The translations under genes and the position numbers were made by a program. The notes beneath the pieces are model-generated. The model saw only the letters and a list, made by a program, of their open reading frames with translations. It was not told where the DNA came from and did no database searches. Below are positions 12,010 through 50,605 of a DNA stretch of 64,000 nt, piece by piece (positions within the stretch are counted from its first letter, which is position 1; every line of letters begins with the position of its first letter). Source of the stretch: Physcomitrium patens (lineage: Eukaryota > Streptophyta > Bryopsida > Funariales > Funariaceae); the NCBI RefSeq assembly GCF_000002425.4, contig NC_037254.1, positions 19,338,880 through 19,402,879 on the forward strand, in the 5' to 3' direction.

Positions 12010-12580
12010 CTTAGAAAAAAAGATGTAAAGATGTATTTAATTTTTTTATATTTAACGAATCAAAGATGTAAAGTTACCTAATATTTTTGGTAATAATTTC
12101 AAATTTTAGTACATCTATATATCCAATGTAGTCAAAGATATAAAGTAGTCCAATTCTTTTGGCAATAGTCTTAAGATTTTGTAATCTATTATACTCAAAT
12201 TTGTGAAAAATATAAATTTGGGTAATTCTTTTGGAAATAACATTAAGCCTAAAAAATCTCTTATATAAAATATAATTAAAGATATGAGTTTGTTCAATTC
12301 TTTTGGTAATGATGTGAAGCTTGAATATCCTCCCATATCCAATGTAATGAAAGATGTGAGGTTGCATCATTCTTTTGGCAATAATGTTAAGATTGAATAC
12401 TTTATTATATTCAATGAAGTCAAAGAAATAAGATTTTTTATGGATTTGAATAATAATTATAAATTTAAGTATATTTTTAAATTTAGCTTTATTAATAAAA
12501 TTATAAATTTTATTTTTTAAGGTAGCTTAATTATATTAAAAAGTCCTTCTAAATTTAATTTCAATAGTGTTGGAATATCA
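12010..12580 (-). pseudogene. LRR region of the receptor pseudogene
   Basis: The minus strand holds at least five repeats of 72 bases (24 residues) between about 12070 and 12430, each built on LPKELxxLxSLTTLDI (visible at 12115-12342 with the Leu pattern intact). Less regular LRRs precede it (PTLLKLNLEGLFNIIKL near 12545-12580). This pattern is typical of plant NBS-LRR receptors, and many moss LRR proteins use LPNELGNLTSLTTL units. The unit length is constant but the reading frame shifts between units. Confidence 0.82.
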
Positions 12581-13149
12581 AAAAATTAATCTAAATAAAT
12601 AAATAAATATATATATATAATTCTTTAATTCTAAAACATTTAATTTTTTGAATTTTTTCTAAAAACCTCTTTTATTTCATAGATAAGATATTTTTTTGAT
12701 AATTCTATATTATGTAATTTTAAAAACTCAAAATTTAGTGATTGTCATTTTAAATTCATAGAATATTCTACTAACATAATAAATCTAGTCAATTTATATA
12801 TAAAATTCTTTGATAAAACTCTACTACGATCAAAGCATAATTTTTAAAGACTTAAAGAAAAACCATCTAATTTTAGTAATCATATTATTATTTTAATTAT
12901 TTTAAGATAATTCTTTTAATTGCACAAGAATAAAATCCAAATGTAAATATGTCAAAATTATCACACTTCTATTCTAAACATTATATATGAAAATTTTACA
13001 ATAATTTTAAATAAAAATTAACTTTTTTATTAAAATATATTTAAAAATATATAAAAATATATATTATAATATAAAAATACCATATCTCTAATATCTATAT
13101 AATAATTTATGTTTTTTATAAAAAAATCATATATTTTATTTTAATAAGA
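12581..13149 (-). pseudogene. Decayed segment between NB-ARC and LRR
   Basis: Lies between the MHD region and the regular LRRs on the minus strand. It is AT-rich with many stops; I can pick out only scattered Leu/Ile-rich stretches that could be first LRRs. No other feature is seen. Confidence 0.45.
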
Positions 13150-13790
13150 ATTAAAAACATATCTTATTTGTAAATCCTTTTGATGGTTGTATATTCATAT
13201 TCCTTATTCTTGTGCTCTTATATTCCAAATTACTTTTCACAATCATTTGATCTATAGCTTATAATTAATCATGCATTCTTATATTTCTACCTTTATTTAT
13301 TCTTACCATTGATTGATAAATAAATGTATTCAATGTAATTTTTATAATTTCTTTTAAAATATTATCTTCATTCTTAGTCCATATTTGTAATGTTTAGTCT
13401 TTTAATATGCCTTAAATATATTCATTATTATCAAATAAATAATATTTATCTAAAAATATGTTCTTTTCTTTATCTTAAAATTTTTTAAAGCTTATTCTCA
13501 ATAAATTCCATACCTTTTGGTTACTATTCTTTTAAAATCTATCCAAATCTCTTTTTCTCTACAACCTTCCTAAAGCTTCTTATTAACATCTCAACCTCTT
13601 TTAATTTTATAAAAAAAAATTATAAGAATTGATGAATTGATATATCCAATGCAATTCCTATAATTCCTATGAATTTAAGACTCAAAAGTAGGCCATTAGA
13701 GGTTTTTATAATTCTATTGTCAACCTCAACAAGATCATTAAGCAATATCTCTTGGTATCTATAAGAAAGAGTAATAAGCAATCTTATAAG
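13150..13790 (-). pseudogene. NB-ARC C-terminal half (GLPL, RNBS-D, MHD)
   Basis: Minus strand, in order: YQEILLNDLVEV then NGLLLSLKFIG, the GLPL motif of the ARC1 subdomain (codons at 13682-13693); the RNBS-D type motif KNIFLDKYYLF at about 13420-13465; and RMHD followed by a stop, the MHD motif of ARC2 (codons 13268-13276). These motifs and their spacing are standard for plant NB-ARC switches, where MHD controls ADP/ATP state. Stops and at least three frame changes interrupt it. Confidence 0.82.
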
Positions 13791-14141
13791 TCACATAATT
13801 AATTTACTAGTTTTTTTTAATACAAAAAAGATACTTAAATTACTTTAAGTCACTATTTAAATATTTAGTGTAGAAGTTTTGAGATATATTTAAAAAATAA
13901 TAATAATAATAATAATAGAAAAAATAAAATAGAGTGTTAGTTGCAAGAATGGATTTCTTGTAGAGTTGTTCTTCAGAAGGAATTTTAAACTACATATCCT
14001 CTCTTTAGATTAACTACAAGAAAATTAGAATTTTTAATAAAAGTCTTATCTCAATTGAATGTTTAATGGAGCTAAAATTTAAATAGAATATTTGATCCAA
14101 AACAACCCAAAAAGAATTAAGTTAAATAATATTAAATAAAT

Positions 14142-14179
<38 letters not shown>

Positions 14180-16384
14180 TTAAAGGACTAGAAGAAGAAT
14201 ATAAAAGAGAAAAGTAGAAAGAAAGAAGAAGAAAAGAAAGAAAAGAGAAAATGAAACAAAAATGAAATAAAAAAGGCCGAAATAAAGTAAAAGGTGGATG
14301 GGGGCGAGAACCTGCCCCCAGATTTTGACATTTATTCTTCTCTCGTGTGAACTATGACTTCGAGGATTCGCATTGGATCAGGTTGGGTCAGTGTAGCGAG
14401 GAGGCCAGGGTGCAAGGCGACGGCGGTCCTCCACCAGTGGACTGTGCAAGTTTTGCACGGTGTTGCAGCTAGTTTCTAATTGGCGTCGACTATCATTTAG
14501 CGACGTTGACAATACTTGAGATTTTTTGCTCTAGTGTCGAAGTGCCAAGGCTTCCATTTTGGTGTCGATGAGGCGACAATTGTTTATTTTATTGTGATTT
14601 GTGTATTAACAGTGGTGCTACAACGCAATTCGATTCCCTAGCCGGCAACTAGAGCGATCTCAGATTGTTCTTAGGGAGCTGCAGATTTATATTTTTTTAA
14701 ATTCTTGTTGCATGGTGCATATGCTGCGAGGAACGTGGTGAATAGATTTGTAGGAGTAACGTGCAGTTGGACTTCGGAGGGAGTGCAACACTTCTTGATT
14801 CTTTCCGAGCTGGTTCCAAAAATTCGTGTTGTTCATCGAAGTGCTGCAGTTGGAACAACGCCGAGGCATGGACTGTGTTACGGTTGTAGGTTGTGTGCGA
14901 CGAATTGGTAGACTCGCTTTGATTGGAGCAAAGATTAGTGGTTCTGGTGAAAGCCTCTACAGCCAAAGCATTGATCGAGTAAACTTGGTAGGCATCAAAG
15001 AATTTGCAATTAAAGGCGTGCCTTGTTACTAGCGTGCTATGGGCCAAAGACCAACAAAACTCTGGTTGTTGTTCTATTCCTTAAGTGTTATTAATTAATT
15101 TTTAGAATTTCCAATGCCATTATGCTCATTGCTGGAAGCAGTGAGCGATCGGTACAGGGGTGAAGTAAACCAACCAAGGCCTAAATGCTTAGCTTAGTCG
15201 ATTGTCTCCCTTCCTCATTGTTGGTATCTTGTATGTGAAGCAGTGGCGAGAATCTAGAGTCTAGACATTCATCGATCTCATCTTTTGAATGAGAAGTTCC
15301 TCGTAGGAATGCAGTGAATCCTACTCGTCAGTTGCTCATGTCAAGGAATTAGTTAGATTTTGTGTGCCCTCGCTAACAAAAAGACTTTTAGGGTTAGAGA
15401 TCACCTGGTTCCCGTCAAATATTTAGGATAGCTGTAGAATTAGTCAATGGTCATCGTTGACACTTGCATTGTGGTAAAAGGCGGCCAAGTTCCAATCCAC
15501 GCTGCTTTAGAGACAGCGTGAGGATTGATCGCCATCTCTCCAATTACAAGGACTCGAAACAGGGTGGTTGAATGGGAAGTCTACAGACTAAGATATACTT
15601 CTACACATAAGACAACAAATTATTGCTGTATCAAAGGATTGGACTGCAACCATCGACAGGAGTGTTCCTTGTGGGGAACTGGAATTATTGCTCATAAACC
15701 TTCGAGGTCCATCAGTTTTTGGAAAGACTCACAAGGTGAAAGCAACCTACTTGGATGGAGTTAGGAGCTAAATGAACCTAGGTTAGAATTGAACTAGGTT
15801 AGGTTGAAGTTTGACGAAAATATAATTGGATGAATTTTAATCACGGATGAAATTTTGAAATAGATGATAATTTTTAGATGAAGGTTGGTTGAAATTGGAT
15901 GAATTTTTATTCGTAGATGAAAAAAATTATTGGATGAATTTTGAATTTTAGGTGATAATTAATACTAGATAAAAATTAGAATTTAAAATTTTAAAAAAAC
16001 TAATAGACTTAAATTAAATCATATAAAAATTTGTCCTTTAAGTATGAGTTTTTGTTGAGTTAATTGAATGCGTTGTGTTATTTAAGTGATTGTGTTATTT
16101 AAGGAATTGTATTGTTATTGTTGTGGAGGTTGAAGGTGAATTTAATTGATAGAGAATTGAAAAGTTAAACAAAATAAGAAACAACTTAATCAATTAAATT
16201 ATAAGCTAATTAATATTAATAAATTAGAATAGATTATCTATTAGAAGGATTTATATTCATCATAATTGGGATTTTTTTTAAAAAAATTTGAATACTTCAT
16301 CAAACAATAATAGAAACTTGTTAGAAAATTTATATAATTAAATTATTGTGAATTAGAATAGACTCTCAACTAGTAGGGGTTTAT
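13791..16384. other. Unidentified DNA interrupting the NB-ARC
   Basis: In a working gene the RNBS-B/C part (16385) and the GLPL part (13790) should be about 20-30 residues apart, yet 2.6 kb separates them. Contents: an AT-rich stretch with an AT microsatellite (about 14140-14175) and AG-rich runs, a GC-richer block (14270-15780), then repeats of a TTGGATGAATTTT-like unit (15825-15950). It may be a solo LTR or an insertion that carried gene fragments. Both boundaries share ACTAGTT in inverted orientation (13810, 16371), which is too short to prove ends. I do not recognise any protein. Confidence 0.5.
14270..15780. other. GC-richer block of unknown origin
   Basis: Base composition jumps from AT-rich to roughly half GC with many CpG, starting at a hairpin-like GGGGGCGAGAACCTGCCCCC (14299-14318) after a purine-rich run. 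ORFs on both strands (14697-15047 minus, 14826-15032 plus, 15525-15764 plus) match nothing I recognise and overlap each other, so I do not call genes. Retained CpG suggests a younger insertion than its surroundings or an unmethylated history. Confidence 0.5.
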
Positions 16385-16773
16385 TTCACTTTACAAACCT
16401 CATACTTATTTCTTTATCAATTTCTTCAATATTTATCTTATAAAATCTTATAGTAAAATATTCTATTTATTTCTAATTTTAAGTTGTTACAATTAGTGTA
16501 TTGTCATTGCTAGCAAACAATACATCTATGGTCATAATGTCTTTGATTTGGCTTTGGTTCTTTATATCATTAAGGACTAAAATAATTTTATTCTTTATCA
16601 AAAATAAAATTAGTTCAAACAACTCCTTGCATATTCACTAAATTTTTATATATAAGTCTTACTAACATCTTATTTTGAATATTGTGGTTGTATAAATTGA
16701 TAAATCTTCTCTTTCCATAAATCAAAATGTAGCATTTTAGCGACATTATTTTCTATTGGATTTTTTTTTTCAA
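16385..16773 (-). pseudogene. NB-ARC N-terminal half (P-loop, kinase-2, RNBS-B)
   Basis: Minus strand, directly after the kinase once C is removed. A candidate P-loop reads DVSKT at 16655-16669; it would be GVGKT with two Gly codons hit by G-to-A changes. Kinase-2 reads IILVLNDI (codons about 16562-16585; canonical LVLDD, second-last Asp changed to Asn). RNBS-B reads NDNTLIVTT (16487-16513), canonical GSxIIVTTR. It then continues FYKINIEEIDKEISM to about 16400. P-loop to kinase-2 is shorter than usual, so some residues are probably lost. Confidence 0.78.
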
Positions 16774-16778
16774 CTTCA
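16774..16778. other. Target-site duplication CTTCA, left copy (element C)
   Basis: CTTCA adjoins the outer end of C's left LTR and is repeated exactly at 49022-49026 outside C's right LTR. LTR elements usually duplicate 5 bases, so this pairs the two LTRs. Confidence 0.8.
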
Positions 16779-17317
16779 TGTTAATGACAAGAACTCAATG
16801 AAAGCAAATAAACAAGTGAGACTTTTTCAAATAAATAAAAATATAGAAGTATGTATATTAAAAAGAAAATTAAAATGGCTATTGCAAAAAGATAAGGAAA
16901 ATAGAGACTCTTGAAACTAGACTAGAAACAAGAAAGGAGTTGACAAGAGTGAAGATGGTTTCACTCTTGCCTCTATATATACTATCTACTAAGGATCTAT
17001 GTGGCAACATTCTATAGGATCTCCAAAAATTTATTGACTTTGTCTGACATGTAACTTGACTTGTAAGGTAAGTTTTCTATATAGGTACCACATAATTAGC
17101 TTATTATACAAGCTACCAATACATGTAGTACATGGGTAGCTTCTTGACCAAATTTCTAACCTACCAATCAACTACAAATATATATAAAGTCAAAACAATG
17201 CCTAAGAAGCATCTAAAAAGCTTTTTTAGAGGATATTATGAAATTAATCTATCTTTATCTAATTCTATTTATTCAAATTACCTAAACAAGAATTACAATA
17301 GATATATATCCATGATA
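16779..17317 (-). repeat. 3' LTR of chromovirus C
   Basis: On the minus strand it runs TATCATGG to TCATTAACA, 539 bases. It aligns with 48498-49021. On the plus strand the purine tract of the element appears as TTACTCCCCTTTCT at 17318-17331. Confidence 0.85.
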
Positions 17318-18119
17318 TTACTCCCCTTTCTAGAGGCAAGTTCCACTAGGAATAGTGATCATATGTTGAAGAAGTCTAAGATGCGGCAAATTGTATTTGC
17401 TATGTACTTTGATCTTTGTTTACTTCAAAGATAATTGATAGGTCCTCTCAACCATTGGTAATATCTCATTTCAGGGTAGAAAGATTACTTTGTGATTTAA
17501 TTATTGTCAAAACCTTTATAACTTCCTTCAAATAAAATATTTATAATACCATTAAGAGTAATGCCTACCCTCAATAAAATCATCAAATATCAAGAGTCTT
17601 TTCTTAAGTTGTGATATCAAACGCATTGTATCTTGCCATGTATTTGAAGAAGAACATGTCATTCTAGAAGGTCTTTATCCCTATTATGTCGTCTTAAAGG
17701 TTGCAATAATTGCAATATTTCATCTAATAAGTCAGCAAATGATGGCTCTTGAGTTGAATCCGTTGGCTATTGCTTTTCCATAATTATACAAAAACTACAA
17801 TCATAGATAGAAGGTAGAATGTAATCTTTTTTGAATTATATTTCTTTTACAACAAAGATTTGCTATTTTTTATCTTGGTTTTGATGGATGTTAATGATAA
17901 AAAGCTTTAACCTTCTTTGCTATATTTGTAAGATTTTTTTTTGGCTTCCATGTATATTTATTAATATCATATCTATATAAATGAAAAAAATATTTTAACT
18001 TATTTCGGCACCACCTTAAGTTTAGAACTTCTTTTACTTCAAATTCTTCATTATTGTCTACTTCTAAAGGAGGAGGTGGAACTTGTCTTCTTCTTGGTAT
18101 ATTTACAGTCTTGTATGGT
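17318..18119 (-). pseudogene. Chromodomain end and 3' region of C
   Basis: The reverse complement of about 18119-17900 reads YKTVNIPRRRQVPP, then EFEVKEVLNL, then a chromodomain with YDINKYTWKP and a terminal VKAFYH. Chromodomains guide integration to marked chromatin. The rest is the 3' untranslated region shared with B and D. The fragment starts exactly where B inserted, in the LEPY linker. Confidence 0.8.
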
Positions 18120-18659
18120 TGTCATGGACATACATAGATATTCTAGTAAATATTTATATGATTAGATAAGAATAGATAAAAGTAAATAAAAATAGGTTAA
18201 TTTTATAAGACATTTTAGAGAAGCTTCTTAAAAGCTTCATACACATTACTTGACTTTACATATGTTTGTAACAGATTGGTAGATTAGAAACTTGGTCAAC
18301 AAATTAACCATGTGCTGGTAGCTTATAGAACAAGCTAACTATATGGTGTACATATAGAAAACTTATCTTGTAAATTAAGATATGTGTCTTGCAAAGTCAA
18401 CACATTTTGGAGGTCTTATAGGACATTACCATATAGCTCCTAGTTAAGAGTATATATAGAGGCAAGATTGAAGTCTTCTTCACTCTTGTCAATGTCTTTT
18501 TAGTCCTTAGTCTTGTTTCAAGACTTTCTAGACTTCTTGTTTTTGATAATAACCATTCTAGTTTAATATTACATCACTTTTTGAATTACTTTTTAGTTCT
18601 CTTCAGTAATACAAGAGTGTATTGAAGATTTTTTTCCTTCGAGATTCATGTCCTTGATA
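18120..18659 (+). repeat. 5' LTR of chromovirus B
   Basis: 540 bases, TGTCATGGACATAC to CTTGATA. Pairs with 23978-24517, which is also 540 bases. I could not make out a convincing primer site directly after it. Confidence 0.88.
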
Positions 18660-18899
18660 GTTTAATAAGAGTATTAATATACTATTTTTGTCTTATTTAA
18701 GAAGTGAGTGGATTACTTCACTTCTATTGTTGTATTTTGAAGATTATGGACTATCTATCTTTAAACAAAAAATCTTATTTTCTAATACTGATCTTTTCTT
18801 TAAAGAGAATGGAATACTTTTCTTTATAGAAATTTTTATTAGAAGTTATAGATTACTTTTCTCTAATTTAATTTTTTAAATTTATTTGAGTTATTTATA

Positions 18900-19960
18900 G
18901 AAAAAAAGATTATAGATTCTACTCTTAATAGGAGTGAGAATAGATTTGCAACTATTATAGATCTTCATGAGCTTGTCAACACTCTTAGAGTAAAAAGCTC
19001 ATGTATTTCGAATGTGAATCATGGAAGTACCATGCCTACACTTATGAAAGAAGTTTAGAATATGTGGCAAGATATTGTATAGTTAAAAGAAGCAAGTAAG
19101 TCGACTTCACAACCAAATCCACGAATTTTTTTTCTATAAGTATGACGAGGACAAGGATTAGTATGCCTGAGAAGTTTGATGGAACAAGATAAAAATTTTG
19201 AGGATTTTTGTAATAAGTCAAGTCCTATCTAAGATTGCATCCTTTCTAATATCTCAATGAATTCACTCAAGTTAGATTTATAGGTGCACTTCTATCAAGA
19301 AGTATTCTCTCTTAGTTTCCACATTTAATAGAAGAAGATTTGCGACTTTTTTATGAGTTGAATTCATTCTTAGAAGTATTTATGGCTACATTTGGAGAAA
19401 GTGATTGCAAAAGAGTAGCAGAGACCAAGCTCTTATGTTTATGATAAAGATCATAATGAGCTACCATACATGCTATTGAATTCCAAAATCTCACTTGCAA
19501 CATGGATTGAAATGACAAAGCTTTTATCAATCAATTTCTATATGGTTTGAAGGATAATATCAAATATTTCTTAATAATAATGCCAAAATCTTAAGAATAA
19601 TTTATTCCTCAAGCCATTGCATATAACAATCAATTATTTGAAAGATATCAAGAACAAAGATATGACTGGAGAAGAACAAATCAAATAATGACACCAGCTC
19701 CTAAGTTTTCAGAAACTTATTTATCAAAGCCAAAATCAATGCAAATTGATACAATACATTTTAAATCCTTCAAAAAGGAGGAAAAGAGTCGATGATGTTA
19801 ATAGGATTTATACTTATATTATAGAGAAGCTAAATATACTGCTCAACATTGTTTAAAGAAACAATGCAATTACAAAATGAGAAACGATTATCAAAGAAGA
19901 CAATGTATTAGAAAATATATTGCTCCAACTATAATAGGGATTGTGCAACTAGAATCATAT
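18900..19960 (+). pseudogene. gag of chromovirus B
   Basis: Reads MPEKFDGTR at about 19165, the usual start of the Ty3 capsid region, followed by blocks for QVKSYLRLHP, FTQVRFIGALLS (19258-19300) and the WNDKAFINQF capsid end (about 19515-19540). A degraded zinc knuckle with YREAKYTAQHC lies at about 19820-19857. Several frames and stops. Encodes the particle protein in working copies. Confidence 0.7.
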
Positions 19961-20029
19961 ACAATATCTAATAAAGGTCTTATTTTCTTCTATGATGCCT
20001 CACCTTATTTTACAATAGAAGTTTGTTTA

Positions 20030-20362
20030 GGATCAAAAAAATCACAAAGTCTTAGTCTTATTGGATTCAAGAGCCTCAGTTTGTTTTATAGATGAAGACT
20101 TTGTTAAAAAACAAGATATATCCTTAGTTAAGAAAATCAAACATGTGTATGTAGAAATAATAGATGGATGTTTATTGTCTTTTGCAGATGTTACATATGA
20201 AATTATTCTTGTAGTAACTAGTGATCATAATAATTTAGTAATATTTAATGTGATTAAATATCCTTCTAATCTAATTATTTTAGGATTATCATGGTTAAAA
20301 AGATATAATCCTCAAATAGACTGGATTTCTTACAATCTTGATTTCTCCCATAATTTAGCCTA
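20030..20362 (+). pseudogene. Protease of chromovirus B
   Basis: LDSRASVCFID from about 20059 is the D-S/T-G/A type active site, and IILGLSWLKRYNPQIDW near 20275-20325 is the second conserved block, typical of chromovirus proteases. The open frame of 100 codons 20061-20363 is the best-preserved part of this element. Confidence 0.8.
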
Positions 20363-20524
20363 AGGTCCTACTAGGCAAGTAGAAATCCATAAGTCTAGTA
20401 TATCCAAATCATTACTGGTAGGTGCAAAAGCTTTCATGCATGCTGCAAATGAAGGGCTATCTTTTGTTATATATTCCATGTCCATTAGTATTAGTGAAAG
20501 GATATCAAGTGGTATTACTAGTCA

Positions 20525-21420
20525 TTATTAAGTTTTTCAAGATGTATTTAAAAAAAAGAATGCAAATATTCTTCTAAAGTATTATCCTTATGATTGTACC
20601 ATCGATCTTCAAGGAGTAACTCAACCACCATTTGGACCAATCTATAGTCTATTATAAAATGAGTTGGTTTCACTTAAAAAGTATATTGATAAAAACTTAG
20701 CTAAGAATTTTATATGCCATTTTAAATCTCTAGTCAATGCTTCTATCTTATTTTGTAAAGAAAAAAAGATGGATCTTTATAAATGTGTATAGATTATCAA
20801 GGATTTAATAAGATCACTATCAAAAATAGGTATCTTCTACCTTTAATTTTATGACTTGTTAATTAGTTAAATCAAACAAAGATCTATACAAAAATAGATC
20901 TATAAGGAGCATATAACCTAGTGTACATAAAAGAAAGAGATGAATGAAAGATTGCTTTCCGAAGTAGATAAGGATATTTTGAATATAATTTCATGCCTTT
21001 TGGACTTACAAATACACCAGCTATTTTTTAACATCTAAAAAATGATGTCTTTTGTGAGTTTCTTGATAATTTTGTCCTCTATTATTTGGATGATATTTTA
21101 ATCTTTTCTAAGAATATAGAAGAGCATAAAATTCATATGTGTTACAAAAATTAAGAAATGTAAGATTATGCACAAAGATGGAAAAGTGTGTATTCCATAC
21201 TACTCAAGTTGAATTTTTGGGATACATCATTTCTAATAATGGCCTGATGATGGATCCAAAAAAAGTCCATACTATCATAAATTAGAAGATTCTAAAAACA
21301 ATAAGAGATGTGTAATTCTTTTTAAGCTTTGCCAATTATTACCAAATCTTTATCAAGAACTTTTTTTAAGTTGTAGCTCCTCCTATACATTTGATTTGTA
21401 AAGACAAACTTGAATAGAAT
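20525..21420 (+). pseudogene. Reverse transcriptase of chromovirus B
   Basis: Blocks in order: YDCTIDLQGVTQPPFGPIY (20590-20645), KKYIDKNLAKNFI (20678-20715), FMPFGLTNTPAIF (20991-21030) and the catalytic YYLDDILIFS with Asp codons at 21089-21094. The thumb/connection block FANYYQIFIKNFF is at about 21328-21370. Stops appear every 30-60 residues. Confidence 0.85.
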
Positions 21421-21850
21421 AAAAAAACCAAAGTATCATTTATTGTTTTAAAGAAAGAATTTATTTTTGTACCAACTTTGTATCTTATCAATTTTTTTAA
21501 GGCATATTTTATGAAAATAGATGCATCAAACTTTGCCTTGGGTGCAATATTATCATAGATGAGAATAGATGACAATCTCCATTTAATAGCTTTTTATTCT
21601 AGAAAATTTTTAACAGTTGAGATTAATTAAAAGATCTATGATAAAGAACTTTTTATAATTAAGGATTCATTTCAAGAATGGCATCATTACCTAGAATGCA
21701 CTTCAAGTCCAATCATAGTGTATATAGATTACAAGAACCTCAAATATTTCATGTCAACACGTGTTTTGAATTATCATGAAGCTCGTTGGAGCATATTATT
21801 ATCAAGATTTGATTTCAAGATCACATATCAACCAAAAAAATAATAAGGTT
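21421..21850 (+). pseudogene. RNase H of chromovirus B
   Basis: MKIDASNFALGAIL at about 21510-21552 holds the first catalytic Asp, SRKFLTVEINXK follows, and VYIDYKNLKYF (21718-21752) corresponds to the HTDHKNL block with its conserved Asp. Degenerate but collinear. Confidence 0.75.
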
Positions 21851-21899
21851 TATTAGATACTTTTATTAAATGCTCTTATCTTAGACCAAAATAACGAAA

Positions 21900-23398
21900 T
21901 ATATCTTTTAATCAACAAAGAATAATCTTCTTGAAGCCAGAGTATTTCTAACTTCGAGCAGTGAAATCAACATTGACTGTTGATTCAACCTTTCTCAAAC
22001 AAATTCAATCAAGTATGTCTTCTTATCTTCTTATTTATGATATCAAAAAACTTTTTTTTAAGTCTCATGATATTTCAAAGTTTGAGTTTAAAAAAAACCT
22101 ATTCTATTTCAAAAAATACCTATATATTCTAAAAAAAGAAATATATTTATATATTCTTCAATCACGTCATGACTTTCCAAGAATAAGATATTTTAGATAC
22201 AACAAGACTTTAGAGCTTATATCTAGAGATTTTTGGTGGCTGTAAATGTGGAAGGTGGTAAAAGACTTTGTCCAGTCATATGATGTTTATTCAAGATCAA
22301 AAACTCTTGATCATTGATCCTATGGACTTCTCCAATTATTGCCTATATTTGACCAACTATAGGCTTCTATTTCCATAGATTTTATTACAAATCTTCTAAA
22401 TTCAAGTTCATGTGACTCTATATTTGTAATTATAGATCGATTCACTAAAATAGTATATTTTATACTATTTATAAAATCTATTTTAGGTAAAGAAATAACT
22501 AAGCTTTTTATTGATAATATCTATTACTATTATGGATAGTCAAAGGATATTATATCAGATAAGGAGACTCAATTTATATTAAGATTCTAAAAAATCCTAT
22601 TCAAGATTCTACAAGTGGATATAAAATTCTCTTTGACTTTTTATTTTCAAACTGATGGACAAACGGAACACGTGAATCAAGTTTTTGAATAGTATTTGAA
22701 GTATACCATCAATTATCATCAAGATGATTAGACAACTCTTTTGCCATTGGTAGAATTTGCATACAATAATTTGATACAATCTTCTACACAAAAAACTCTT
22801 TTTTGCCAATTATGATAATCATCTACTACTTAATATTTTTGACTTTTGAAAAGTTAATAATCTTACAGTAAAAGATTTAATAAATTGTTTGTCAAAGATA
22901 CATGCAATAATAAAGAGACAATTAAAGGAAGCTCAAGAATGACAAAAGATCAACTCGGATGCCTATTACAAAGAGCAACCACAATTCAATGTAGATAATA
23001 AGATAAAGTTACTTTGTTACAATATCAAGACTACTCGTCCCTATGATAAGTTGGACTATTATAGACTGGAATTTTTTTCTATTAGTGAATAAATCAATCT
23101 TGTTGCTTATCAATTACATCTGTTGGAGACTATGAAGATCTACCTTGTATTTCATGTATCCTTTCTTGAGCCATATAAGATAGTAAATAACTTGAGAAGA
23201 AAAAAAATGCCACTGCTTCCAATAGAAATAGATAATAATCAAGAGTTTGAGATAGAAGAAGTCTTAGACTCAAGGCAGTATTGAAATAGGTTGGAATATC
23301 TTATTTTTTGGTGTGAATATGATATTAGTGAACATATATGGGAGCCATCAAAGAAACTTATAAATACAGTAAAGACAGTTGAAGCCTTTTATCAATGA
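21900..23398 (+). pseudogene. Integrase and chromodomain of chromovirus B
   Basis: The zinc region includes SRDFWWL (22225-22243). The core has SIDFITNLL near 22374-22400, then SDKETQF (22556-22576), and FQTDGQTEHVNQVFE (about 22646-22690) with the catalytic Glu. The tail reads YLVFHVSFLEPYK (23133-23171) and RLEYLIFWCEYDI (23288-23330), followed by HIWEPSKKL and VEAFYQ, a recognisable chromodomain ending at 23398. Many stops. Confidence 0.85.
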
Positions 23399-23977
23399 TA
23401 TCCATCAAAAGTAAGATAAAAAATAGCAAATCTTTGCTATAAAAAAAATAAGACCAAAGTAAGATAATATACTATTTTCTATTCTTTTTTATAGCTTTTC
23501 TATAGTTAAGGAGATGGAAAAGCAACAACTAGCAGATTCAACTCAAGAGATTTTATTTGTAAACTTATCAGATGAGACATTGCAATTGTCACAACCTTCA
23601 AGTCAATGAAATTATAATGAAGATCTTGAAAAATGACGTGTCCTTCCTCGAATAGATGGTGAGTTACAATAAGTTTAATATCACGACCTTGGAAGAGACT
23701 CTTGATGTTTGGTGATTTTATTAGAAGTAGAAACAAATCCTAATGGTATTCCAAATATTTTATTTGAAGGAAGTTAAAAAGACCTCAACAACAACCAAAT
23801 AACAGGGTAATCTTCTTGCTTAGGTATGAGACACTATCAATGGCTGAGAGGACCTATCAACCATCTTCAAAGAAAATAAAGATCGAAATATGTAAAAAAA
23901 TAAATTCATCATATTTTGGATTTCTTCAACATATGAAGACCACTTCTCATAGAACTTGTTCCTAAAAGGAGAGATAA
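23399..23977 (+). other. 3' untranslated region of chromovirus B
   Basis: Alignable with 10090-10678 in D and, inverted, 17318-17900 in C. A purine-rich AAAAGGAGAGATAA (23964-23977) abuts the LTR and should be the polypurine tract. ORFs here are not genes. Confidence 0.7.
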
Positions 23978-27038: not shown

Positions 27039-27041
27039 TTT

Positions 27042-33821: not shown

Positions 33822-33827
33822 CATTTT

Positions 33828-37382: not shown

Positions 37383-37387
37383 ATATT
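37383..37387. other. Target-site duplication ATATT (Copia), left
   Basis: ATATT here and at 43071-43075 flank the two Copia LTRs exactly. Confidence 0.85.
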
Positions 37388-37880: not shown

Positions 37881-37898
37881 CTCCCACTTTGCTATTGG

Positions 37899-40800: not shown

Positions 40801-41999
40801 ACCTTTTTGCAATTGATGAAGTAGAGATTTCCATCTCTAAGGCCTTTGGCAACATGTTGGCCATCCAATGTCTTGACAAAATATCCATTCATGTCAAATT
40901 GAACCTTACAACCATGTGATACAAGTTTGCTCACCGAAAGAAGGTTCTTCTTCATTTTTGGTACATGTAGGATTTCTTTCAATCTGATCCTCTTTATTTG
41001 GTCCTTCACAACAATCTCCACTACAATGGAGCCAATTCCAATGGCTTGTACCATGCTATTGTCTCCCAACCATACTTTTATTGCTGGAATTACTTCATAA
41101 GTGTCAAATGAACACTTGTATGGTATCATGTACTTAGTAGCACCTGAATCTATAATCCACTTTGATATGGTAGCCATGGAGGCTGCTTCCTTTGCCATGA
41201 AAGCATACTCATCTCCACCAAAACTATCACTAGCATTGTTTGCATTCTCCCTATCTCTTTTCTTAGCCTTATAGTAATTTCTAGCAAAATGACCTAGTTT
41301 CCCACAAATATAGTAATTTCTCATATTACTTTTTGAATTATCACGTTGGTGAAAATAGCTACTTTTGCCTTGTCTTAAAAATAGAGCAGAATCATCACTT
41401 GTAAGCTCATTTTCTTTCCTCTTCATCACTTCATGGGTAAGTCTTGATGTGACATAGTTCATGGTAAGCTCCTTCATGTTGATGGATTCCAATGCCACAA
41501 TGAGGTAGTTGTAGGATTCGGGAAGGCTCATGAGCAATGTCAATATAATATCTTTATCATCAATTGGTTTGTCAACAATTACTAATTGGTTAGCAAGTGC
41601 TTTTATCTTATTAACATGAGTCATGAGGTCATCTCTTTCTTCTATCTTTACTGTCAAGAACTTCCTTCTTGTCCAAAGGATGTTGGCAAGGTTTCTACTC
41701 TCATAGATGTTACAAAGAGTCTTCCATGCTTCTGCTGGTCCATTGCAAGCTATAACATGTGAAAAGTTGGCATCATCAAGTTTTGTTGCAATCATCCCAA
41801 AAGCCTTCCTTTCACAATGTTTGTATTCTTTCTTCACTTTGATATCAGCATTGTCACTTGGAGGGTCTTCACTTTCATCAACAATGTCCCAAAGGTCCAA
41901 TGAAGCCAACAAAAGTTCCATTTTCTTCTTCCAATGGTAAAAGTTGTCACCCCTAAACTTTTCAATCACTCTCAAGCTCTCACCTTCACTTGAAGCCAT
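37899..41999 (-). pseudogene. Copia gag-pol polyprotein with eight in-frame stops
   Basis: One frame of 1366 codons with no frameshift. Gag starts MASSEGESLRVIEKF. The zinc knuckle near 41271-41320 has two Cys changed to Tyr. Protease WIIDSGATKYM is at 41127-41160. The integrase zinc domain is about 40600-40733. In the core, the second acidic residue is changed (RTNNGGEY near 40340; canonical DNGGE), while the Glu in NGVAERAN (about 40230) is kept. RT has YIDDL with Asp codons at 38856-38861. RNase H spans about 38370-37899 with CDADW, EAEYMA and CDNQG. Premature stops: 40755-40757, 40731-40733, 40509-40511, 40452-40454, 40167-40169, 39408-39410, 38268-38270, 38253-38255. Four lie where Copia proteins have Trp and one where they have Gln. 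Confidence 0.93.
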
Positions 42000-42577
42000 G
42001 TCTAAAGAAGGGATGTGTGAAAGAAAATCAAGAAAAGAAGATATAGAACTCTCAAAATCAATAAGAAGGTGTTGCTACCTTAGAAACCCAGATGCCCTCT
42101 TTGTAAGTAAACAAGTGATTTTACTCTTGTATCACTCTCAACTTCACATATAAGACTTCTCACAAGTCTTATACTCTATCTAAACCTCTTGTATAAGCTT
42201 TGCCACTCTTCAATCATCCCTCTTTTCTCACAAAATACTTCTAACCTCACAAAAAAAAACTTCTTGTGAAAATAGAATAATCTCTAAAGAAGTTAAGTAC
42301 ATGAAACGACAAAGTTAGAACATCAATGATAAATCTTAACAAAGAAATATAATACTAGAGTTCTAAAACATCATTATATAGAGTCTTACATCAAGAAAGA
42401 CTATGAGTGCACTTAACAATAAATAAGAGCAAAATTACATCAACAATTAGATGCATAAGAAGGATTAGAAGTTAACAAACTCAGACTTCAATAATAACTA
42501 TAAGGTCTACTCCTTACAACAAGAAAGACTTCAAATTTCTTTAAAACTCACAAATAAAGGTGAGTGGGCCCATAACC
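42000..42577 (-). other. Copia leader
   Basis: Between the 5' LTR and the gag start. No ORF of note on the minus strand. On the plus strand GGGCCCATAACCTATT borders the LTR; its complement would be the primer site, but I could not match it to a tRNA with confidence. Confidence 0.6.
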
Positions 42578-43070
42578 TATTAAGAAAACAAGTACTTAGA
42601 AGACACAATACTTAGCATCAGCAAGGTTGCACAAAAAAAGAGTATGGAATAAGATATCTCTCACTTCCAACATCCATTACTTATAGGTGGTAGTTGCTAC
42701 CCTAAAAGACAATGTCCACTCTTTGACTTTTACACACATAGCCCTAGGATCCTTTTGACATCTCACGAGTTCCAAGAGTATCCTATGTGCAATACTAATT
42801 ACTTTTATGTCTTACACACATGCTCTTAGGATTCTTTGGCATCTCATGAACTACGAGGGTATCCTATGACACAAACTAATGACTCTTACTTAATTATTGG
42901 ATATTCCTTTGTTAATACTTTATCCTTTTGACTTTAATTCTTGGTCCATGACTTTGTCCTATATCCATTGGATATCCTTACCATATACCAAGAGTCAAAC
43001 CTTTGACCGCTAGCAACTTACCTAAGATAATATCCTATACAAGATAATATTTTTTACTTTTACTTAAATA
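42578..43070 (-). repeat. 5' LTR of Copia
   Basis: 493 bases, paired with 37388-37880. Confidence 0.92.
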
Positions 43071-43075
43071 ATATT
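43071..43075. other. Target-site duplication ATATT (Copia), right
   Basis: Exact match to 37383-37387. Confidence 0.85.
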
Positions 43076-43137
43076 AGCATTAAAATTAGTAAAAATATGT
43101 TAAAACTTACAAAAAGAATTGTAATTAATCATTGCAG

Positions 43138-45230
43138 CTTTTAATTATACTCTTACTAGGTACAAATCTAGATCAACATTTGTCTCAATTCTTGACTATA
43201 TGTATAGCCAATAATGGTAGAAATGACAATATTTGGTTGAGATGGCTACCAATGACCTTGAAAGCTACAACATTTGAATGGTATAATTTCCAACTTATGG
43301 ACCAACTTTTTAATTGGGAGGCATTAAAAAATATATTTTTAATCCATTTTCAACCAATTGGATTTGAATAACATCTCAAGAAAATATTAATGAATAATAA
43401 AATGTTATCAAAAAAAGTAGTGAAATCATATTATGGCTGAGTAGCAGATATCCTTTGTAAATAGCTAAATAATCAAATGCCAAATTTATTTATTTTATCT
43501 ATATTGATTAATAGACTATATCCACTAGAATTGAAGATGTTTGTAAAAGAGGCCTAACTGACCATTATTGCTTACTCGCTTGATTGAGCTAAGGTATGGA
43601 AAGAATGTCATTATGACCAATTCCTAACCATAGGAGCCATAATAATTCCATCTTAGAGAGATTATCAAATGTCAGCTTATAATGAAGCAGTAGATAGTTA
43701 TCTAAGAACGATTGATTATAGTGCAAATCTTAATCTGCAAAGAATAGTTAATATTGTTCTATTGTAAGCTATACCACTAATAGTAGCAGTTTTGTATTCA
43801 CCACACATCCTATATCAAAAACCAGTACCTACAAAAGAATTACCTAATGAAATATTATCGAAGAATCCAAATGAGGCATTGTTGTTAACTTTGACAAAGA
43901 AGATGGATGAATTGGCTATTAATCTGATAAAAGATAAGGAAAAGAGGCATAAACCGACCAATATATGTTTCAATATTTCGTGCAATAATTATAAAGGACA
44001 AGGCCATATAATAACAGAATGTTCTTTACCACCCAAAATGATTGTGTAATGTATATTCTGTGAGAATAAGCATGCCACCACCAATTTTTGGAATTTACAA
44101 AAACAACAATAATTTGGTAATCAGACCATGATTCAATAGACTTCATGGGATGTTAATCAAGTCAAGACAAAAAATAGGTTTGACTGAAATGGAAATTATT
44201 TGAATAAACAAAATAGGAATTTCTTTAAATTTCAAAATTTTGGATATAACCAAGAATGTGGACCCAATTTTTAATATATTGAACAAAATTAGTAAGAATA
44301 TTTCTAATATCCACCCATTCAAAAATTAATTTTAGATTCTATATACTAACTGGATAGCTGAGATCATTTATCCATCTAACCTGAAATAAGCCCAGCCAAT
44401 ATATACTAGTAGAAACACCTAATATTCTTGATGGAGTTGGAAGTAGATCACTTTGATGTTATCATTACAGGCAGATAGGACATTATGCTAGTGAATGTCC
44501 CAATCCAAGGACCAGTGATGAATATGATCTAGTATATAGAAATTATAAGCAGTTGAGACATACATATCAACAGTGCAATGCTCCATTTAATTTTAATATA
44601 CAAGACTAGCAAATCCAGCTGCATAATAAGAGACACGAAAATAATCAAGGGCCATAAGATTCTCTTATAAATTGGGTGGAATGCATTCATGCAGTACTTA
44701 TTAGAGGCCAATAAAAAGAAAAAGATCCAATTCTGCAATTGGATGCACCAGTTACAAAGGATCATTTCAATTCAATTATGGAAACTCTAGATTTAATACA
44801 TATACCAAAAATATTATCAATGTTGAGACTTGGTTTATCTGCGTAATCCAATAATATTCTTAGGACTGAGGTATTAGTTCAACCTAAATCAATACCATTA
44901 TTTGGAAAGTTTCAAGAGCCATCTTATATATTAAAAGATCTTCTTATAGACTGACATTCTGACAAAGTTTATTTAGCTATCTTATATTTGAATTCCATAA
45001 AGAAAGATATATTATCTCAAGGGATTAAATTGAAATCCATGAAAAAGAAGAGGACTTTAAAAATCATTACCAATATAGAACCATATGATATTTTTAAAGC
45101 TTTGGATGCAATTTAGCCTTCTATTATAATGAAGCAATTTTTGGCAGTAGCCTTAAAATATCATTTTACATTAAAGTCTTCTTTAATAAGACGTAGTCTT
45201 GTAATAGAAAAATTTATAAAATTAGTTTAA
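43138..45230 (+). pseudogene. gag of RLG-c, main part
   Basis: Resumes after block Y with NLDQHLSQFLTICIANNGR (43155-43210) and NWEALKNIFLIHFQPIGFE (43314-43369). Zinc-knuckle remnants are at about 43980-44035 (CNNYKGQGHIITEC, one Cys lost), and HYASECPN and QLRHTYQQC near 44480-44580. Frameshifts and stops throughout; more decayed than RLG-a or RLG-b. Confidence 0.75.
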
Positions 45231-45845
45231 ATCTCAATCTGGGAGCACTAACTATTGATATATCCATTGATGGTATTTTTATTTTCAGTATTCAAGTGGA
45301 TGGTGGCTCTAGTATGAATGAAATGAATGCTAATACAATAGAGGACTTGAACTTAAAATAATTATTATCCATAATATTGATATTAAGAATGGCAAATCAT
45401 AGTTGCGTGAAACCAATAGATATCCTACTCAGTATTGCCACTGTAATTGTTAGAATCTTATACAAGATTGATTATATTATTTTTTGATTACAAAGTTTCA
45501 TATTATCCTATCTAATCTTATTGGGTAGACCAAGGCTATATCAAGCCAAAGCTAAGAATGATTAAGACCATAGAACATTGACTATTGAAACAAAAAAAGA
45601 TAATATTGTGTTATAAATGTACCTAGTTCAATATCATGGAGAGTCTCAAATTCTAGATTCAGAGATAATATCTCATGATGAGGGTCAATCTAATATAGAA
45701 TATGATAAAGTTACCAATGCAATGTAAGTTGGTGATGATCCACATCACCTACAAAAGCAAGGCGTGTTATACCAATGTAAAGGACCTAAAAAATATTTAG
45801 TATATCTAGAGGATACAATGAACTATGATCATATTATTATTGATT
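45231..45845 (+). pseudogene. Protease of RLG-c
   Basis: TIDISIDGIFIFSIQVDGGSSMNEMN (45250-45330, quoted in part by position) carries the family's D-G-G active site, and YLILLGRPRLYQ (45510-45545) is the second block. It ends at a junction near 45845 where about 400 bases present in RLG-a (4195-4600) are missing. Confidence 0.75.
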
Positions 45846-46245
45846 AGATGAATAATTATTTATCTAGTTTCATATAGTGAATAGATTTCATCAATTGTAA
45901 TGATATCAAAGAAGAATGGAAAAATCCGAATTCGTCAAGATTATCATAAATTAAATACAGCTATTAAGAAGGATTATTTTCTTTACCTTTTACATAAAGT
46001 ATCCTAGATGTGGTAGCTGGGCATGAATGTTATTCTTTTTTGGATGGATTTTTGGATTACAATCAAGTTAAAATTACAAAAAAAGACCAATTAAAGACTA
46101 CTTTCACTACGGATTGGAGGACCTTTTCTTATAAAGTTATGTCATTTGGATTATGTAATGCTCCAACCATGTTTCAAAGGTTAATGATGCAAGCTTTTCA
46201 AGTTCATTTATGACATTCAATAGAGATATTTTTAGATGATTTACA
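45846..46245 (+). pseudogene. RT fragment of RLG-c fused to post-pol ORF
   Basis: Fingers (SKKNGKIRIRQD, about 45910-45945), then ECYSFLDGFLDYNQVKI (46024-46074), TTFTTDWRTFSYKVMSFGL and the catalytic IFLDDL with Asp codons near 46232-46237. Directly afterwards the sequence matches RLG-a 8085 onward, so RNase H, integrase and the first half of the post-pol ORF are deleted. Confidence 0.82.
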
Positions 46246-46770
46246 TACATCGCTCCAATTATGTATACTTTGTGATTGCATATACATTGAATCAAACACT
46301 ACTAGTAACAACAAATAATATGCCCTCTCAAGTACCTCCACAAAGTATTCAAAGTTTAATGCCATTGACAGCTAGTCCTAGGATTGTGGTACATGAAATT
46401 ACGGAATCAAGTAACTTATTGAGATGAGAGGCTATACCAAAGATTCTATTAGAGCAGATTCAATTTGTTTGGCAATCAAAGTAGAGGCTGAAGTTCCAAT
46501 TTTGATAGACATCAATCAATTAGCATTTCTACAGGGTAGAACATCAAAAAGAGTGAATCTCAAGGATATCATATTGGCACAAATTTCTCAATTATAGCTT
46601 ACAATGAGTAAACTTGATGGGAAGGAATAAATAACATAGCAATTGGAGGTTGACAAGAAAGAGCTATTGGAGCAAAATTACTAAATTAAGGAATAGAATC
46701 GAATTATCTAAGAAAATATAAAATCCAGATTATAATTGGAGCATAAATTTGGGAAGGAACAAGAAGCTTG

Positions 46771-46809
<39 letters not shown>

Positions 46810-47335
46810 ACTTTCAACATATCATGGAAGGCCAAAGACAAGACTTAATATAGATTCACAATATATCAATGTTGAAACAAAAAAAAGGTGATGTGTCAAT
46901 TAGAAATGGAATGAGAAAAAATAGCATTATTGGAACAAGAAAAGTGGACATTGAGTGACGAATATAGAATTGAAATAAAAAAATTACAGACAAAAATTGA
47001 AACCTTGAAGATTGTAGTGATAAAATTGGAGGTTGATTTAGCCAATATTGGTCAGTTATAGATGTCTATTTCATCCATTTTAATAATTGATGAATTAAAA
47101 GAGAAAGTGATGTAATAATAGTATTATTTAGAAGCAAAAGATGTCAGGATTCTGCAGTTGGAGGCTCAAGTTCATGAATTAGGAGCGTATAATGAGGACT
47201 TATTAGTCCAATTGAGAAAAAAAACCAATCAAAGTATTAAAGGAGGATGACGACTTCTCATTAGAACCGAAATCAGTGGAACCACCTATGGAGAATATTG
47301 AAATTAATCAATCCAGTGAACCAAAGAGTTAGAGA
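46246..47335 (+). pseudogene. Post-pol ORF, second half, of RLG-c
   Basis: Aligns with 8085-9121 of RLG-a: YVYFVIAYTLNQT, then QLAFLQGR (46520-46545), and a long E/K/Q-rich coiled-coil-like region ending EYNEDL-type sequence and an acidic tail. A run of 38 A (46771-46808) sits inside the coiled-coil part. Confidence 0.7.
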
Positions 47336-47416
47336 CTTTGTAAGGATTCCATTGAAGTAGTTTTCTTTTACCAATTTTGTATTTACAAGGACACTGCACA
47401 ATTAGGAGTGGAACTA

Positions 47417-48252
47417 TGTAGAATAGGTAGAATTTTTTTGTTTTACAATACCTATGATGTAGAATTTAGAGAAGCTAGTAAATTGATGAATAGATAGTTT
47501 AGTAGGCAGAATGAATGATATAGTCAAAAAAAATAATTATTATTGGTTATGTAGTAGTTGGCATTTTGAAGAAAACATAAGTAGGTTGAAGAAGAAATAG
47601 AAAGAGCCAGACTATGATAGTCATGAGCCAGAGTAAGCTTGATGTTATCTCTTTGTTCTTTGTTTTCTTTGTAGAATAAGAATAATGGATAGTTTCTGAA
47701 TATTATGAAGTGAAATTTTGGAATAAAAAAAAAGATTTGATATAGTTGATATCAAATGAGAAATTAAATTTATTGTGTGCTCAATTATAAGTAGAGGATT
47801 TGAAAGTCGATAATAGAAGATGTTTGTGAAGTATGGATATAACTAAAAAAATTATAATACATTGAATATTGATATTCAAGAAGAAGTATGTAGAATCTAG
47901 AATTGTGTGAAGCAGATTAATAGGAATGACAATTAGTTTGAAAAATTCCAATGATTAGATTATAGAATGTTTTATGCAATCTTTTAAGATAGTGTAGTAT
48001 AGCCTATTGTTGTCATAAGTTTGAAAAAGAGAAGAGGTAGTGGATACATAAGATAGAATTATTGATTGCAATATTTTCTTTGATAGAATCCGGAAGACAT
48101 ATAGCATTCTTGGATGTTTTAGTTGATCAAGAGATAGTTAATTGTATGACCCTAACATGAAAACTCATGTAGATAGTCTTTCTCCGTATTTGAATCTCCT
48201 TATATAGGTTTATTCTGATTAAATTAGTCCAAAGTAAATAAAATGACAATCA
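47417..48252 (+). repeat. 3' LTR of RLG-c
   Basis: 836 bases, TGTAGAATAGG to GACAATCA, preceded by AGGAGTGGAACTA. Same layout as the RLG-a LTR in the first 300 bases but longer in the middle. Confidence 0.88.
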
Positions 48253-48497
48253 TGATATCATTGCATTCTTCATTTTAAGAAGCTCTATCATTATAACACT
48301 TAAAAAAATGTCTAATATTACTCATGAAAAACAAAAGATAAGCCTTGAAAATAAAGAAATACTAAAAACAATATTAGTTTAGAAGAAAATAATCTATAAC
48401 TTCTAATATACTTATGTCTTATTAAGAAAAAATAGATAATCCACTCTTAATCAAGACAAGACAATGCTCTAATATTATAAGTGTATTCTTATCAATC
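48253..48497 (-). other. Leader of chromovirus C
   Basis: The reverse complement aligns loosely with 18665-18730 of B (shared TTAAGA and GTGGATTA blocks). It lies between C's 5' LTR and the insertion of RLG-c. No coding. Confidence 0.6.
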
Positions 48498-49021
48498 TAT
48501 AAAAGATAAGAACTCGGTGAAAGCAAATAAACAAGTGTACCTCTTTTAAAGAAATAGAAATATAAAAGTATGTATATTAAATGAAAAACTAAAATGGCTA
48601 TTGCCAAAAGACAAAAAAAGTAGAAACTCTTGAAACTAGACTAAAAATAAGAAAGGAGTTGACAAGAATGAAGATGACTTTACTCTTATCTCTACATATA
48701 TTATCTACTAAGGATCTATGTGATGATGTTCAACAAGACCTCCAAAAATGTATTGACTTTGTATGACATATATCTTGACTTGTAAGGCAAGTTTTCAATG
48801 TGGGCGCCACATAGAAAGCTTATTCTATGAGCTACAAAAACATGTGGCACATGGATAGCTTATTGACTAAGTTTTTAATCTATCAATCAACTACAAATAT
48901 ATGTAAAGTCAAAACAGCATCTAAAAAGCTTGTAAGAAGCTTTTTTAGAAGGTATTATGAAATTAATCTATCTTTACTTAATTCTACTTATTCATATTAC
49001 AATAAATATATATTTGTGATA
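48498..49021 (-). repeat. 5' LTR of chromovirus C
   Basis: 524 bases. Shares with 16779-17317 the variant 3' end (AACTC..GTGAAAGCAAATAAACAAGTG on the plus strand). Its outer end TGTGATA abuts CTTCA (49022-49026). Confidence 0.85.
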
Positions 49022-49026: not shown

Positions 49027-49995
49027 TAAATCTTTTGTAAATATTTTAAAATTTTGGTCTTTACAAAAGATTCTATATCTAACACTTTAATAAGCTTTCT
49101 TAGTTCATTGCAATTTGAAGGCAATTCTAATCTTTCACTTATCTTTTTTTTTTTTTTTTTTCTGATATCTCTTTTTTTATGTTAACATTATGAAATGGAT
49201 TTTTTTCTAAATAATCTTAAAACATAATACTACAAATAAATACACAACCACTTCAAATAGATATAATTTCATTAATTCTTTTTTTTTTTAATATTTTAGG
49301 AATCAAGTATAAAATATTATCATAGATATTATTATTGTCTATAACTTTTAGATTCCTTTTAATATCTATCTTAGACATTCCAAAATCAATCAATTTCATA
49401 TCAATATATTTAATAATTTCATTCATTATTATTTTTCTTTAATATTAAATAAAATATTATGTAGCTTTAAATCTTAATGTTTAATATGTATATCATGCAT
49501 ATATCATATTCTTCTTGAAATTTGATATATAATATCAATAAAAAATCATAAAGTATTTCTTTTTTTTCTTTCAATGTATTCTCTAAGTTTATTTTCATCA
49601 ACTCTATTCCCAATTATAAACTTTTATTTAGAGTTTTTTTAGTATAAGATTGACTATCACTATTATCATTATTGTTTATTACAAAATAATACTTCATCAA
49701 GTTGAAATAGCTTACATATACTAAAATACTCACTTCTCTAATATAAAACTTATCATCTTTAATATGCATATTTTTTATTGCACACAAAAGCACCTATCAC
49801 TTTATTTTGTAAATTTTTCTAAAAGTTATTTTGTTTATAAATTTCATGTTTTTAATATTTATTATGTTTAATAATAACTTCAATACATCTGATTTTCTAC
49901 CTTTCTACCTTTCATGCATGTCTTTTAAACTTTATAGTAAATTTTTTGTTAGTTCATAACATTTAAAAAAATTATTTCCACTTATAGGTATCATT

Positions 49996-49999
<4 letters not shown>
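49027..49999 (-). pseudogene. Protein kinase domain of the receptor pseudogene
   Basis: Minus strand. N-lobe: a VAIK-like stretch at about 49750-49800 and REVSILVYVS, with the helix-C Glu, at 49700-49740, followed by NLMKYYF. Catalytic loop: IHIKH, a stop in place of Arg, then DLK and N two residues on (H-x-D codons 49471-49479). Activation segment: KLIDFGMSKID with DFG codons at 49379-49387, then IPK in place of APE near 49300. C-lobe end: DIESFVKTKILKYLQKIYE against a typical D-RPxFxxIxxxL ending at 49027. Two or more frameshifts. The style (HRDLK, DFGMSK) fits plant Ser/Thr kinases of the tyrosine-kinase-like group. Confidence 0.85.

Positions 50000-50046
<47 letters not shown>
49999..50046. 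repeat. AT microsatellite
   Basis: About 24 AT units between the N-terminal region and the kinase N-lobe, probably an expansion inside the decayed gene. Confidence 0.95.
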
Positions 50047-50048
<2 letters not shown>

Positions 50049-50605
50049 TTATTATCACCTCCCACATCATTAAAAATTAAAACGAAAAAAGTAATAATTG
50101 TAGTGTCTTCAAATGTCTTCCAATTGTATTTTCTAAGTATATCATTTGTCATATTGTAACAACTCTTCAAATTCCAAAAAACAATTCTAAAAGTTTCTTT
50201 AATCTTTAATTAAAATATAGTCACTTGATATTAATTTTGATCTCTATAATTCTTTATTAATGATTCAAATTTATTTATCACAAAAAAAAATTCATGTAAT
50301 AAAAGTCTATATTCCACTCTATTATTATTATAAGTAATAAGCCATTAAAAAACTTTATAATACAATCAATTTTCTTGAATAGATTTTTATATTTTTTTTG
50401 TTTAAACAATCTTTTTTTTCAATAAAAATTATATTTTTTGAATAAAAATTTGAAATTTTTCTCAAATATCTTCATCAATATCTTGCATTTTTAATATAGT
50501 ACCAATATCTTTAATATTATTTATGAATCTTTGAATCTAAAAATTTACTATCAACCTTCAAGCCATTGTTAAAAATCTTGTAAATGATTCTAAAAGATAA
50601 GCCAT
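50047..50605 (-). pseudogene. N-terminal region of the receptor pseudogene
   Basis: The minus-strand ATG at 50603-50605 opens MAYLLESFTRFLTMA, then after frame changes INNIKDIGTILKMQDIDEDI, EKFQIFIQKI and later LLHEFFFVINKFESLIKN. The pattern of Leu/Ile/Phe heptads suggests a helical bundle. N-terminal helical regions precede the kinase in several plant kinase groups (DUF1221-type, MLKL-type); I cannot tell which. The true start could be further upstream. Confidence 0.6.

Follow-up and report, generated by a model that had tools for sequence, protein, structure and literature searches.

The window considered here is the whole 64,000-bp stretch of Physcomitrium patens chromosome contig C2 (NC_037254.1) from 19,338,880 to 19,402,879, and positions below count from its first base. 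Along its minus strand, from 50,611 to 12,058, tblastn matches in domain order the pieces of a protein kinase-nucleotide-binding site-leucine-rich repeat gene (kinase-NBS-LRR, also PNL or Pkn-NLR, NLR being a nucleotide-binding leucine-rich repeat receptor), each domain being found once and all on the one strand. We are highly confident that the locus is a dead copy of such a gene; it is an ordinary dead member of an already known class. From the N-terminal end, the pieces are as follows.

50054..50611, minus strand: N-terminal helical remnant, putatively HeLo/MLKL_N-like (one frame; matched in tblastn by 15 of the 28 loci at E<=1e-5, with 3.8e-46 for the best set)
49999..50046, no strand: (AT)24 microsatellite (Tandem Repeats Finder), between the N-terminal piece and the brace/kinase piece
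49086..49979, minus strand: brace region and protein kinase remnant (tblastn; aligned in five stretches, with frames -3, -2, -1, -2 and -3)
16395..16778, minus strand: NB-ARC middle piece (tblastn at 16,613-16,395 from 18 of the 28 loci, lowest E 1.7e-17; aligned part interrupted by 3 stops)
13160..13790, minus strand: NB-ARC C-terminal piece (tblastn at 13,654-13,160 from 19 of the 28 loci, lowest E 1.0e-31; best aligned stretch interrupted by 11 stops)
12058..12585, minus strand: 24-residue leucine-rich repeats (tblastn 3.8e-29, from 19 of the 28 loci; best aligned stretch interrupted by 5 stops)

The queries were 282 stop-free frames of at least 100 aa from 28 loci of the same genome (470 Mb, 101 contigs), searched against the window at a main cut-off of E<=1e-5; BLAST E-values given here may be those of a linked set of hits. 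Of the 28 loci, 15, 17, 18, 18, 19 and 19 matched the respective six intervals tested, and the base-reversed window that served as control gave 0 matches at E<=1e-2 vs 736 for the real one, bearing out the initial annotation, which was made from the sequence alone and had read kinase, NB-ARC and LRR pieces in the right order on the minus strand. The plus strand of the LRR piece was also matched, by frames antisense to LRRs, and a single retroelement frame matched at 40 kb. The NB-ARC pieces are matched at the main cut-off by loci that carry the N-terminal domain (18 and 19 of 28), and by none of the nine loci that lack it (L001-L007, L009, L024). The middle piece holds an RNBS-A-like start (by eye), kinase-2 and RNBS-B, and the C-terminal one RNBS-D, MHD and, read by eye, GLPL with its P changed to L. 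Pfam searches, which the initial annotation had proposed as a check, agree in part: single-frame read-through gave a sub-cut-off match to Pkinase (4.7e-7, 29.9 bits, cut-off 31.7) and a weak one to WHD_ROQ1 (0.024), and no relevant match was found for the LRR stretch (three frames), the N-terminal remnant (three frames) or the middle NB-ARC piece (its matching frame only). Such weak scores are expected for a wrecked gene.

That the pieces once formed a single gene is supported by intact relatives. A genome scan for NB-ARC, with 125 of 259 candidates scored, gave 125 matches, from which we chose a panel of 20 sister loci, every one stop-free within its NB-ARC match. In 18 of these, a single strand carries the N-terminal part, kinase and NB-ARC in that order, and matched kinase and matched NB-ARC are 296-527 bp apart; the remaining two (L009, L024) are distant NB-ARCs of 24-26% identity. 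An intact paralogue was also found: P0004, an 'uncharacterized protein [Physcomitrium patens]' of 1,234 aa, carries N-terminal part, kinase, NB-ARC, WHD and LRR in one protein, 53 of its 121 sampled 30-mers occurring in its best single frame, in L031, and the remainder would sit in other exons. The ordered sisters and P0004 thus dispose of the notion that kinase and NB-ARC belong to separate genes in all intact homologues. A second P. patens protein, P0005, has all 47 of its sampled 30-mers in one frame of L017, in keeping with the earlier surmise that this is a moss genome. The kinase of the sisters retains K, HRD and DFG invariant or nearly so (10 rows). Antisense to the repeats, the LRR exons of L016, L017 and L019 also carry open frames as long as 371-966 aa; these probably result from the codon composition of the repeats.

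The gene is interrupted by the following inserts, of which the first contains the next four features.

16779..49021, no strand: nest of long terminal repeat (LTR) retrotransposons (LTR alignment and target duplication; outer ends placed by eye from the duplication)
18122..24515, no strand: pair of LTR-like direct repeats within the nest (84.1% over 536 bp)
26506..33095, no strand: pair of LTR-like direct repeats within the nest (85.7%)
33505..48252, no strand: direct repeat pair bracketing the Copia-type element (33,505-33,821 and 47,941-48,252, 88.0%)
37388..43068, minus strand: Copia-type element inside the nest (RVT_2 2.4e-72, Retrotran_gag_2 8e-38; LTRs 91.4% identical)
13791..16384, no strand: ~2.6-kb insert (ends taken from the initial annotation; GC- and CpG-richer core at ~14.3-15.7 kb)

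The outer LTRs of the nest (16,783-17,281 and 48,502-49,000) align over 499 bp without a gap at 83.4% identity, and a 5-bp target duplication, CTTCA, lies at 16,774-16,778 and 49,022-49,026 within a 7-bp match. Repeat pairs within the nest are 84.1, 85.7, 88.0 and 91.4% identical, so that divergence is slightly greatest in the outer pair, as would befit the oldest insertion. Of the two excisions proposed in the initial annotation, the large one is thereby upheld in its boundaries, and for the smaller one (13791-16384) no clear target duplication was found; its core (14,300-15,700) has a GC content of 0.40-0.53 and a CpG observed/expected ratio of 0.55-1.13 in very AT-rich, CpG-poor surroundings, and its open reading frame at 14,697-15,080 has no Pfam match. 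Beside the gene, direct repeats at 11-716 and 9,292-9,977 (87.3%) flank a retroelement-like region (11-9,977). The 32 kb that now part the kinase and NB-ARC pieces might suggest that the pieces stem from at least two adjacent genes, one encoding a kinase and another an NLR, but the insert with its target duplication sits exactly between these two pieces, the domains keep single copy, order and strand, and the sisters show the same order at 296-527 bp; we consider a two-gene origin extremely improbable.

Decay of this copy is extensive. Stop codons per best aligned stretch number, from N-terminus to LRR, 8, 5, 3, 0, 0, 0, 3, 11 and 5; the kinase remnant shifts frame four times (tblastn), and the arginine of its HRDLK is replaced by a stop, with DFG retained. 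For the P-loop (Walker A), whose absence the initial annotation did not remark, six-frame reading and tblastn show nothing ahead of the RNBS-A-like start, and the end of the kinase exon is likewise absent from the window by the same two means. Sister frames retain the P-loop, and we read its absence as a loss in this pseudogene. Given that the target duplication of the large insert lies at the kinase/NB-ARC junction, the P-loop region was probably lost before that insertion. Substitutions were counted at 1,026 sites of the N-terminal, kinase and NB-ARC pieces (LRR left out) that were covered by at least 6 sisters with at least 85% agreement. Conserved C had changed at 28 of 54 sites (19 to T) and conserved G at 89 of 190 (75 to A), vs 41 of 415 for A and 40 of 367 for T; that is, about 50% of C or G sites vs about 10% of A or T sites, C to T plus G to A making up 94 of all 198 changes. 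This excess loss of C and G fits decay of methylated, silenced DNA: the PNL copy may have been silenced and methylated, undergoing C to T change on either strand, and may have served as a target for retroelements. With every domain carrying stops, the kinase shifting frame, a GC content of ~18-22% in the gene pieces and no P-loop, it is very unlikely, if marginally less so than a two-gene origin, that the locus still yields a useful product such as small RNAs or a kinase-only protein. Broken copies are common in the genome, since 79 of the 125 NB-ARC matches contain in-frame stops, some of these matches being pieces of one gene. Open PNL frames of the sisters L011, L015, L019 and L023 are themselves strongly CpG-depleted (observed/expected 0.02-0.29), as if long methylated.

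The class itself is already known from two reports. In the portion of Xue 2012 (PMC3352924) consulted here, the P. patens PNL class comprises 45 of 65 NBS genes, 6 of them intact, with a phase-0 intron between kinase and NBS, a stretch missing in the window; the corresponding portion of Tanigaki 2014 (PMC3991678) counts 17 kinase-NLs. The window copy resembles the class as these passages describe it (including PpC24 of PMC3991678) in kinase, TIR-type NB-ARC, LRR, their order and the species, and differs in being a pseudogene without a P-loop. In the same passages the N-terminus is given as kinase only, with no helical part. Tsn1 and other monocot kinase-NLRs likewise have an N-terminal kinase on an NLR, but unlike the moss class they are placed in the CC/RPW8 NB-ARC clade (selected passages of PMC11218826 and PMC10952240), which hints that the kinase was joined to NLRs independently in monocots and mosses.

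What lies upstream of the kinase is of more general interest. The initial annotation correctly placed a helical part there and held that it made the gene longer than a plain kinase-NBS-LRR and might be undescribed. It does not make this copy unusual, since the sisters share it: it spans ~230 residues, and 9 of 10 copies start M-x-Y, the next two residues being aliphatic in 8 and F-L in one, in a stretch of amphipathic character. Six-frame reading of the window's remnant finds M-A-Y-L-L-E-S near its start, resembling the sister copies. Searching with the window's own N-terminal frame gave 326 candidates, 0 of them at E<=0.01, and relatives were recovered by using a sister frame, then P0001, as query.

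A profile of N-terminal part plus kinase (A4; 12 frames, 11 distinct, one of them, P0009, metagenomic) was compared with 177,635 PDB sequences. Its best match is 6lba (3.6e-43, 151.3 bits), with which it stays colinear from the brace onward (184-532 to 185-526), followed among those of note by a chain of EGFR with two kinase copies (141.5 bits), 6ka4 (3.6e-39, 138.1 bits) and the best Raf chain (4.4e-35, 124.6 bits). We take 6lba and 6ka4, labelled 'Protein kinase family protein' and 'F22L4.1 protein' in the database, to be AtMLKL2 and AtMLKL3. With a kinase-only profile (A5, 10 frames) 6lba still leads the single-kinase chains (132.6 bits; the EGFR two-kinase chain sums to 137.3), and 6ka4 (116.8 bits) falls below a Raf chain (118.0). 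Adding the N-terminal part therefore gains 18.7 bits for 6lba and 21.3 for 6ka4; we considered this gain as an MLKL-specific argument and rejected it, since MAP3K9 and CTR1 rise too, and we do not use it as evidence for MLKL. Plant MLKLs, namely 6lba, 6ka4 and, from passages of PMC10951266, wheat Pm13, are like PNLs in having a helical domain, brace and kinase, with register kept from the brace on, and the Pm13 kinase is of active type as well; they are unlike PNLs in that no NB-ARC-LRR is reported, and the HeLo part of PNLs is weakly recognised by sequence. According to the same passages Pm13 is built as MLKL_NTD-brace-kinase, and resistance is lost in mutants of any one of these parts.

A closer comparison is available within the moss. 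A genome scan with the Pfam model MLKL_N gave matches in 10 places with E<=1. Four exceed the cut-off, one of these, L036, only together with its neighbours; L034 is a plant U-box protein, with L035 and L038 alike by sequence. L036 (C11:15,706,405) is an MLKL_N-kinase (MLKL_N 4.4e-5, below cut-off; kinase 1.4e-49) whose best PDB match, over the kinase, is 6lba. Profile A4 aligns with it from columns 45-531 to 37-524 (E 2.5e-40), the score coming mostly from the kinase. With the N-terminal profile alone, hhalign gave a score of 32.4 against the L036 N-terminus (P 3.7e-4, probability 36.5%), compared with null maxima of 19.3 in 200 shuffles and 19.7 in 128 control frames from fetched loci; the same profile scored 26.3 against the U-box protein, 13.6 against another coil frame and 36.4 (probability 55%) against a five-member profile of moss MLKL_N proteins. 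L036/L039 carries MLKL_N and kinase, aligned with the PNLs over columns 45-531 and encoded in the same genome, but has a second kinase (by eye) in the position of NB-ARC-LRR, and its first kinase is without HRD and DFG. An open frame of 889 aa in this region (C11:15,704,000-15,706,900) encodes an MLKL_N-like domain and two kinases, the second with HRD and DFG (by eye), and may represent a HeLo-type tandem-kinase protein.

We consider it likely, not proven, that the helical part is homologous to HeLo/MLKL_N, with moderate support from the helical domain by itself, and somewhat less likely, but still probable, that the kinase-NLRs of mosses arose by fusion of an MLKL (HeLo-brace-kinase) with an NB-ARC-LRR sensor, in which case the receptor would directly control membrane killing of MLKL type as its output. 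Several observations weigh against this. Pfam matches on 11 sister N-termini are all below cut-off (DUF7792 in 7, MLKL_N in 2, DUF1221 in 1), six stray families reach similar E-values in one member each (Mak10 0.0068), a consensus of 18 N-termini matches no Pfam family at E<=1, and the window's own remnant is blank in Pfam. Against PDB the N-terminal profile finds nothing relevant, and the HeLo region of the A4 alignment to 6lba has just an extra weak match at 61-144 (5.6 bits); hhalign probabilities against moss MLKL_N proteins are just 36-55%, and profile A2 against a stretch of AtMLKL2 reaches 0.9%. The MLKL_N score of L036 is itself near or below cut-off (26.5, 27.8 with neighbours; 23.5 vs 27), the score gain from the N-terminal part is also seen for MAP3K9 (4uy9, +16.4), CTR1 (3ppz, +11.6) and Raf (5hi2, +6.6), and two AlphaFold models (7 and 9 sequences) are of low confidence, with mean predicted local distance difference test scores of 36.7 and 41.3. 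In the passages of Chia 2024 (PMC11218826) used here, Pkn constructs up to NB-ARC were made, and one with a P. patens kinase N-terminal domain gave only a modest, variable response in tobacco leaves. DUF1221 (PF06760) had no match in the genome, but the control set was also silent, hence its absence is not demonstrated.

These sub-threshold, unmatched, unspecific and low-confidence results would suit helices unrelated to HeLo/MLKL_N, a separate moss domain joined to a kinase that alone is MLKL-like. Against such a separate origin, the alignments with Arabidopsis MLKL2/3 and L036 continue in register upstream of the kinase, and the N-terminal score with L036 lies above all 200 shuffles and 128 control frames; we regard it as unlikely, though far less remote than the alternatives concerning the locus itself. 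On the MLKL-NLR fusion, which we favour from sequence comparison, the intact sisters would probably act as follows: LRR and NB-ARC would sense and then oligomerise; the kinase, with its conserved K, HRD and DFG, and the brace would hold or release the helical bundle; oligomerisation and kinase activity would free the HeLo-like bundle; and the amphipathic first helix and bundle would act on membranes, as in MLKL.

Among the titles, abstract openings and selected passages of the open-licence literature surveyed, we found no publication connecting moss kinase-NLRs with MLKL or HeLo, and a HeLo part in these receptors goes unmentioned in the passages of Chia 2024; evidence and mechanism of immunity for moss kinase-NLRs are described as still wanted in those of PMC10952240 and PMC11218826. 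The locus adds one more dead member to the class, and its main value is as a lead on the N-terminal half of that class. If that half is MLKL, the PNLs would have a counterpart in RPW8-type NLRs, which carry a HeLo-like bundle (as given in part of PMC9950082), and NLR sensor and MLKL executioner would be united in one chain, a reading that is directly testable in a genetically tractable moss.

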